A stretch of 64,000 nt of DNA, from positions 1,796,501-1,860,500 of the forward strand of contig NZ_CP097885.1 of the NCBI RefSeq assembly GCF_023614525.1, given 5' to 3'. Made by a program: the position numbers and the translations under genes. The DNA comes from Peptoniphilus genitalis. GTDB taxonomy: Bacteria > Bacillota > Clostridia > Tissierellales > Peptoniphilaceae. How positions within the stretch are numbered: the first letter of the stretch is position 1; every line of letters starts with the position of its first letter. Below the pieces are notes generated by a model, which saw only the letters and a list, made by a program, of their open reading frames with translations, had not been told where the DNA came from and did no database searches. Of the stretch, positions 51,251 to 52,327 are shown piece after piece.

Positions 51251-51569
51251 GCTATTAAAAATAATTGAAAAAATAGGACTTCCATTTGCATACTCGCACT
51301 TTGCTGAAGGAGAAAGTCCAGATCCACCATTTATAGTCTATCTATTTCCAAAGAATAAACACTTTGGAGCAGATGGAGTAGTTTTTTACAAAAACACCCA
51401 GATAGACTTAGAACTTTACACTGATAAGAAAGATTTAAAACTAGAAGAAAAAATAGAAGAGATACTTGATAGAGAAGAAATCTATTATGAAAAATCTGAA
51501 GTTTGGATTGAATCAGAAAGACTCTATGAAGTTCTCTATGAATTTACTATGGAGGTAAAAAATGGCTAA
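51243..51569 (+). CDS. tail completion/terminator protein
   Basis: The 108-residue protein (LLKIIEKIGLPFAYSHFAEGESPDPPFIVYLFPKN, then DLELYTDKKDLKLEEKIEEIL, then YEVLYEFTME) fits the gp9/DUF3168-like tail terminator family. ATG 51243 overlaps the preceding gene by 8 bases. Its stop lies just after the start of the interrupted first copy of the tail tube gene. Confidence 0.85.
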   Translation: MDRLLKIIEKIGLPFAYSHFAEGESPDPPFIVYLFPKNKHFGADGVVFYKNTQIDLELYTDKKDLKLEEKIEEILDREEIYYEKSEVWIESERLYEVLYEFTMEVKNG

Positions 51570-51730
51570 TAAAGTTAAATTTAATATTTGTAATGTTAAT
51601 GACCTAACCCCACGAGCCTTGCGAGTGGAAGGTAGGTCAGATGTCACGCAATCCAATTCTCTGCGACTGATAAGGAGCGAAGAGAATTGTGATGGAGCTG
51701 ACTCACTACAATTTATGGGAGGTAACAATT
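51562..51730 (+). other. structured element A with duplicated start of the tail tube gene
   Basis: 51562-51597 encodes MANKVKFNICNV, the first 12 residues of the tail tube protein. From 51598 the frame reads unrelated sequence to a stop at 51739-51741. The intervening DNA starts GACCTAACCC (51601-51610) and forms GACCTA (51601-51606) with TAGGTC (51633-51638). A hairpin CAC-GA-GC-CTT-GC-GA-GTG (51611-51627) has tandem G-A pairs, and CAATTCTCT (51654-51662) pairs with AGAGAATTG (51681-51689) around ATAAGGAGCGAAG. It ends by supplying a new GGGAGGT ribosome binding site. Element B at 56670 shares its conserved blocks. Confidence 0.65.
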
Positions 51731-52327
51731 ATGGCAAATAAGGTAAAGTTTAATATTTGCAATGTGCATTATGCATTATTCGATAAAGCTGAAGAGGGCG
51801 TTATTAAATATAAAACACCAGTGCCAATGCCTGGTGCTGTTTCAATTTCATTGGATCCTAATGGAGAGCCTGAAAGCTTTTATGCAGATGGAATTGAATA
51901 CTACACTATTTCAAACAATATGGGATATGATGGAGATTTAGAAATCGCCCTTATTCCAGAATCCTTTAGGACGGATGTTTTGATGGAAAGATCAGATTCA
52001 AATAAAGTTCTTATTGAGTCTTCAAATTCCGAAACTGCAAACTTTGCACTGTTATTTGAGTTTGATGGTGACCAAAAGAAAATCCGTCACGTCATGTATA
52101 ACTGCTCAGCAGCAAGACCTACTCTTGAAGGAGAAACCAACGAGGAATCAAGAGAAGTCCAACCAGAAACCTTGTCTATTCAAGCAAGACCACTTCCAAA
52201 TGGAAATGTAAAGGCTAGAACAGGCGAAGAGACTACAAAGGAAACTTATGATGGTTGGTACAAGTCAGTCTATATGCCAACAGAAAATACAGTAACACCT
52301 TCAAGAGCAAGTGTTGGAGGTAAATAA
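51731..52327 (+). CDS. major tail tube protein
   Basis: The 198-residue protein (MANKVKFNICNVHYALFDKAEEG, then PMPGAVSISLDPNGEPESFYADGIEYYT, then ATRP-like SAARPTLEGETNE and ARTGEETTKETYDGWYKSV) matches siphophage major tail proteins of the phi13/HK97 type. Its first 12 codons repeat 51562-51597 with six synonymous differences and no amino-acid change. ATG 51731 follows GGGAGGT, provided by element A. Confidence 0.9.
   Translation: MANKVKFNICNVHYALFDKAEEGVIKYKTPVPMPGAVSISLDPNGEPESFYADGIEYYTISNNMGYDGDLEIALIPESFRTDVLMERSDSNKVLIESSNSETANFALLFEFDGDQKKIRHVMYNCSAARPTLEGETNEESREVQPETLSIQARPLPNGNVKARTGEETTKETYDGWYKSVYMPTENTVTPSRASVGGK

Follow-up and report, generated by a model that had tools for sequence, protein, structure and literature searches.

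Several kinds of mobile DNA are known to make good the gene that they interrupt or to accompany the start of one. Integrative elements in tRNA genes restore the gene with a copy of their own, and cluster K mycobacteriophages carry extended start-associated sequences, a repeated hairpin element just 5' of phage start codons. In fungal mitochondria, mobile endonuclease open reading frames (ORFs) in Allomyces atp6 and in Glomus sp. atp6, atp9, cox2, and nad3 carry a diverged C-terminal part of the gene that displaces the native one, and the C-terminal portion of Glomus atp6 differs from that of a close relative by synonymous changes only (PMC3630166). Mitochondrial introns of Tremella carry N-terminal duplicates (PMC7315562). 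Here, we describe a prophage tail-tube gene whose start is present twice, on either side of a small element without an ORF of its own.

The window analyzed is a stretch of 64,000 nucleotides from Peptoniphilus genitalis. Codons 1 to 12 of its tail-tube gene occur at 51562-51597 and again, 169 bp apart, at 51731-51766; as the preliminary description had reported, the two copies share 30 of 36 bases, and all six differences are third-codon, synonymous changes, with zero amino-acid change. A blastn comparison within the window gives an E value of 4.9e-8 over 48 nt, Shine-Dalgarno region included, so the repeat is not due to chance. The similarity starts 5' of the ATG; the downstream copy brings a second GGAGGTAA-type ribosome-binding site, and PHROG 88 identifies the product of the downstream ORF as a major tail protein (E value of 5.5e-59).

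Read along the plus strand, the locus opens with U (51562-51597), the ancestral codons 1 to 12 of the tail-tube gene. They survive as a stub whose ribosome-binding site is intact, and they show 0 differences from four phages that lack the element (L138, L142, L148, and L220). Next comes the two-hairpin element, E (51598-51703), which is 106 nt long in this copy, has the form NATGACCTAACCC-hairpin 1-GGTAGGTC-AGAT-hairpin 2-GACT, and is matched by our covariance model at 51599-51703 with 71 bits; the fold z-score of 51598-51730 is -3.65, with two stable hairpins. Directly 3' of E lies v (51704-51709), the CACTAC of codons 13 and 14 of the interrupted original and the same as the empty-site continuation, followed by X' (51710-51730), a replacement leader with the Shine-Dalgarno site GGGAGG at 51717-51722 and the same sequence in all carrier types. 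The real gene uses the recoded codons 1 to 12, U' (51731-51766; GGCAAATAAGGTAAAGTTTAA), and continues into its remainder, V (51767-52327). From the insertion point on, V resembles the empty relatives, except for two private bases (nt 45 and 46) in the window's own lineage, and v stays CACTAC throughout the carrier types, including those whose restored gene has CATTAT or CATTAC.

The upstream copy had been called a dead stub ending in the element; a stub it is, but its frame does not stop inside E. It stays open for 59 codons (51562-51741, plus strand) across the whole element, overlaps the real start, and ends 8 nt past the real ATG. This frame is open in all seven carrier block types found, and a PHROG search with it gave no match; the 106-nt E holds no ORF apart from this read-through. 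A group I or group II intron was not supported, with no Rfam match to E at the tail site in the window, even at E values up to 5; since the downstream start is complete and brings a Shine-Dalgarno site, splicing is not needed, and programmed ribosome bypassing across E is unnecessary for the same reason.

Tail-gene relatives were gathered from viral contigs and related genomes, and the empty site whose existence had been proposed was present among them. The empty phages L138, L142, L148, and L220 read ...GGAGGTAAAAA-ATGGCTAATAAAGTTAAATTTAATATTTGTAATGTT/CACTACGCTCTC... (slash, insertion point), and the boundaries of E were read off this site, GTT/CACTAC. Carriers have the empty-phage sequence up to GTT and then AATGACC...GCTGACT (E), CACTAC, AATTTATGGGAGGTAACAATT, the recoded start, CAYTAYGC, and the gene remainder. 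The stub keeps the ancestral codons, as had been suggested, with 0 to 1 differences from the closest empty phages, whereas every empty phage among the relatives collected is at least 5 differences away from the recoded codons. The exact pattern TGGCAAATAAGGTAAAGTT occurs in 7 sequences in viral contigs, all of them element carriers. From the empty-site sequences it follows that the stub is ancestral, that the insertion lies between codons 12 and 13, and that the recoded copy was placed behind E. Empty relatives with the recoded start, which the preliminary description had named as the sign of an ordinary tandem duplication, were searched for among the collected relatives, and none was found.

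That description had also seen in the recoding the mark of homing or of an immune replacement of the target. In such a scheme, E would be a non-coding homing element, a trans-acting RNA- or protein-guided nuclease would recognize the uninterrupted start, and the cassette would carry an uncut recoded version. The recoding does end at the insertion point, the block does spread between backgrounds, and a free-standing NUMOD4/HNH endonuclease gene lies in the same prophage (41292-41804), directly 3' of the small terminase gene. However, E encodes no protein, the genome of the window has no IscB/IsrB-type protein, and E copies in tRNA genes are unrecoded. In two of the seven carrier block types, moreover, the recoded start has ordinary codons (TGT and GTA) toward its end, beside the insertion point: in the L016/L139 and L029/L143 types, the restored junction is TTTGTAATGTACA[CT]TAC, the same as in empty phages such as L150 and L222. 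From their sequences, these ordinary codons look like the result of later recombination with empty phages. The partly reverted carriers and the unrecoded tRNA copies argue against immunity, and we regard a non-coding homing element with an immune target as improbable. The related picture of a protein-free, gene-drive-like element, with E mobilized in trans, the uninterrupted start as target, and the recoded start as protected replacement, is a similarly long shot; if it were true, a non-coding DNA of ~170 bp would convert the same essential gene in phage after phage.

E is a small insertion element, structured and without an ORF, that occurs in Tissierellia and in the prophages of these hosts. 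With its first-hairpin pattern, viral contigs give 23 matching stretches and one-genome-per-species contigs give 75, mostly in Peptoniphilus, Anaerococcus, Urinicoccus, Tissierella, and their relatives (one of the 75, in Aquimarina, looks like chance). A covariance model built from 24 copies, with compensatory changes at two first-hairpin pairs, finds E in 77 of 130 host-family genomes, where it is multicopy, with up to 19 copies per genome; the collections hold one genome per species plus viral contigs, and the records nearest the window may be missing from them. Most copies are chromosomal, many lie directly 3' of terminator T-runs, some are inside tRNA genes, and one is opposite in orientation to its gene. 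The base preceding the variable first base of E is T in all 48 distinct sites. Empty and filled sites at the small terminase gene terS (TATT/AATGACC...GCGACT/AAAGAA) and the large terminase gene terL (TTTTTT/ATGACC...GCGACT/ATGCCC) show simple insertion and no target duplication, indicating that E alone can be the inserted unit. A literature search of open-access papers found no description of this repeat. In three Ndiopella sequences (L053, L084, and L101), at least 10 near-identical copies have extra outer inverted repeats (GTAGGGGCGACC...GTAGTCGCCC) and are possibly a recently active subfamily.

Three other readings of E were considered and rejected. Identity with the HEARO/IsrB RNA was suggested by copies that follow ATGA, but the genome has no RF02033 match and no RRXRR partner (RRXRR exceeds the cut-off in 1 of 130 family genomes, and this genome has none), and the ATGA belongs to E, since neither the clpP nor the tail site shows it at the insertion point when empty. 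A rule that E always sits inside hairpins, with its flanks as closing stem, was not supported, as flanks at 48 distinct sites showed no excess pairing over shuffled flank pairs. Mobilization by IS200 is at odds with the ends of this genome's IS200-type copies, which are unrelated to those of E, and with the occurrence of E without Y1_Tnp: three genomes (G083, G113, and G021) have 8 to 9 copies of E each and no Y1_Tnp match. We identified no mobilizing enzyme for E.

A second copy of E in the window (56668-56744, plus strand; covariance model match, 45.7 bits) lies behind the stop codon of the tape-measure gene and ahead of the next tail gene, has its own new ribosome-binding site, GGAGGTG, and has empty counterparts in L012, L081, and L103. 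The tail gene behind it appears to start with TTG (window 56668-56780), whereas most other carriers have ATG. Both window copies precede the start of a structural gene and end near a Shine-Dalgarno site, and at the tail-tube gene every carrier has an open stub frame that reaches into the real start, as might be expected if E were a phage leader RNA that regulates late-gene translation and the stub part of that leader. Such a role is hard to reconcile with a repeat whose copies are mostly chromosomal, many of them after terminators or in tRNA genes and one opposite to its gene, and with the many phages of the same type that do without E; we give it hardly any weight.

Other features of the window were noted in passing. 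On the minus strand, antisense between tail genes, a Phd/YefM-like antitoxin ORF and a neighboring small ORF (52865-53095 and 53190-53609) form a possible toxin-antitoxin pair. A SnoaL-like ORF (46641-47069) lies between the large terminase and portal genes. The family A DNA polymerase gene at 31883-34750 appears to contain an intein (CIAEGELVLTDKG...FTVSGKLVHNCG), and a 259-aa ORF in an unrelated frame inside the intein region (33366-34145) has no Pfam match.

The layout U-E-v-U'-V, that is, original 5' part, E, 6 to 9 nt of original sequence, second 5' part, and gene remainder, was found in six unrelated genes: the tail-tube gene, a gene for a ClpP-like protease, a gene behind Dit, and the genes for tRNA-Glu, tRNA-Phe, and tRNA-Asp. 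In every case, v is 6 to 9 nt of the interrupted gene beyond E, as read by eye from aligned empty sites. At the gene behind Dit, another tail gene, v is AATGTA, followed by a new Shine-Dalgarno site and start. In tRNA-Glu(TTC), a layout found in many Anaerococcus-type genomes, the stub ends in the D-loop and is followed by E, AAGACA plus T or C, and a full tRNA gene; the tRNA-Phe site reads CAGTCGGT, and the tRNA-Asp site, at which E is inverted relative to the gene, reads AGTTGGTT. The gene parts at these tRNA sites are nearly unchanged and unrecoded, so recoding is not a general requirement. Recoded starts beside other copies of E, which the preliminary description had proposed to look for, are present at clpP and absent at the tRNA genes.

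The empty clpP gene reads CTCTTTTTT/GAAGAATTAAAA. In carriers, its first 39 codons are followed by E (inserted after nt 117), TGAAGAATT, a fresh leader, and then a start that is again complete. Private bases of the restored copy, counted against empty phages, number 33 to 36 in nt 1-120; in nt 121-300, there are none in haplotypes L018 and L268 and two in L025, and in all three haplotypes the divergent part stops no more than 3 nt from the insertion point. Stub and restored copy are 64 to 71% identical, with 8 to 13 synonymous and 9 to 13 amino-acid-changing codons. Among 199 related genomes, only carriers have the restored start at 88 to 100% identity, and the next matches, at 76 to 79%, are ordinary starts. 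When U and U' were compared with outside relatives at the amino-acid level, the count was 31 to 14 by best score and 19 to 32 by mean, and U' was not placed closer than U to those relatives.

These observations bear on the main rival explanation, duplication in place. E would have inserted, a tandem duplication of leader and gene start would have restored the gene, and the used copy would have diverged later under purifying selection; E would have been lost from the second copy or inserted in the first, and recombination with empty phages would have kept the stub ancestral. It stays the main rival because tandem arrays that contain E do arise: a tRNA-Glu array in L366 (G104) is built of 174-bp units (E v X U) with 97% identity between units, and L355 (G015) has near-identical units of about 300 bp. 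An E-containing array with 87-bp units is also present in L039, Clostridium aminobutyricum. Tandem duplication followed by long divergence would give the same layout, and the changes in the tail gene are all synonymous. Yet it is the used copy that diverged and not the dead stub, the clpP divergence breaks off no more than 3 nt from where E entered, a pattern not expected from a gradual decay of linkage, and U and U' differ more from each other (29 to 36% of bases in clpP) than the U' copies of carriers differ among themselves. We consider duplication in place unlikely, though it deserves more weight than the readings above. Because the clpP divergence ends so sharply and the copy in use is the diverged one, we favor, on these alignments, the view that the start had already diverged when it was acquired, rather than that a local duplicate drifted slowly.

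Diversity around the tail site was compared among 8 carrier haplotypes, for which the mean pairwise difference is 6.0% in the left 900 bp, 0.9% in E plus leader, 2.8% in the recoded start, and 4.5% downstream. Low diversity in the block between diverse flanks suggests that the block has a recent common origin and was joined to many backgrounds by recombination, and that the 17% difference between stub and recoded start is older than this spread. A population that recombines and in which an insertion arose only once would be expected to show low block diversity too, and the tail pattern can likewise follow from a single origin and ordinary phage recombination.

The explanation that we find the most probable, with some reserve, is a start-replacing insertion cassette, consisting of E and a substitute 5' part, that spread among prophages by recombination. 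What entered the tail gene, at the exact boundary of codons 12 and 13, would be a 169-bp cassette: E, then 6 nt of the broken gene, then a ribosome-binding site that is new, and last a diverged version of codons 1 to 12. This would have left the original start as the stub, and translation of the tail gene would now begin in the cassette and continue into the body of the original. We infer that the cassette originated with an insertion of E into a relative of this gene, the diverged 5' part of which was captured along with E, and that it then spread among prophages through recombination in the flanks. The recoding may have been kept because it removes the repeat homology that would delete E, a simpler reason for its persistence than immunity. 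The earlier proposal that the element arrived with its own diverged start is thus partly upheld: the recoded version was seen only beside E, clpP shows the same arrangement, and a low-diversity block lies between diverse flanks; no donor phage with the recoded start and without E was found, and import is therefore not proven.

The empty sites in phage genes, together with the same layout in tRNA genes, show how an element this small can lodge in essential genes and spare its host, since it carries or acquires a substitute gene start. This would extend to bacteria and phages a replacement of gene pieces known from fungal mitochondria. The analysis also defines a widespread Tissierellia repeat family that has no Rfam entry, and it carries a warning for annotators, as the upstream start is a decoy.

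Set beside the systems introduced above, the cassette most resembles the fungal mitochondrial gene hybrids, in which part of the host gene has a diverged substitute, brought by the insertion, and the native part is conserved and displaced; comparison with empty phages shows an insertion with a diverged duplicate and a conserved native part at both the tail-tube and clpP sites. There, however, replacement affects the 3' end, and the element encodes an endonuclease of the LAGLIDADG or GIY-YIG type, whereas here the 5' end is replaced, in bacteria and prophages, and the 106-nt E, without an ORF beyond the stub read-through, encodes no homing endonuclease. With Tremella introns it shares a piece of the host gene that moves along with a mobile element and is able to take the place of the native piece, the length of the duplicate depending on the insertion site (PMC7315562); those duplicates lie inside the intron, whereas here the second copy has its own start and no splicing is needed. 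IS200/IS605-derived palindrome-associated repeats and other bacterial MITEs are likewise small and multicopy, with hairpins near both ends, a T-rich target, and no target-site duplication, and E has the two hairpins and, at the empty terS and terL sites, the simple insertion. Its ends are nonetheless unlike those of the IS200-type elements of this genome, and several genomes have E without a Y1 transposase match. As with integrative elements in tRNA genes, the inserted DNA keeps the gene whole and leaves a partial gene on the other side, but those elements are large, encode an integrase, and have identical core repeats, whereas the E cassette is about 170 to 250 bp and ORF-less. Unlike extended start-associated sequences, E occurs in chromosomes as well, breaks into genes, and supplies a substitute start. 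By analogy, then, the E cassette appears to work like the fungal mitochondrial elements, yet it is not a member of that group.
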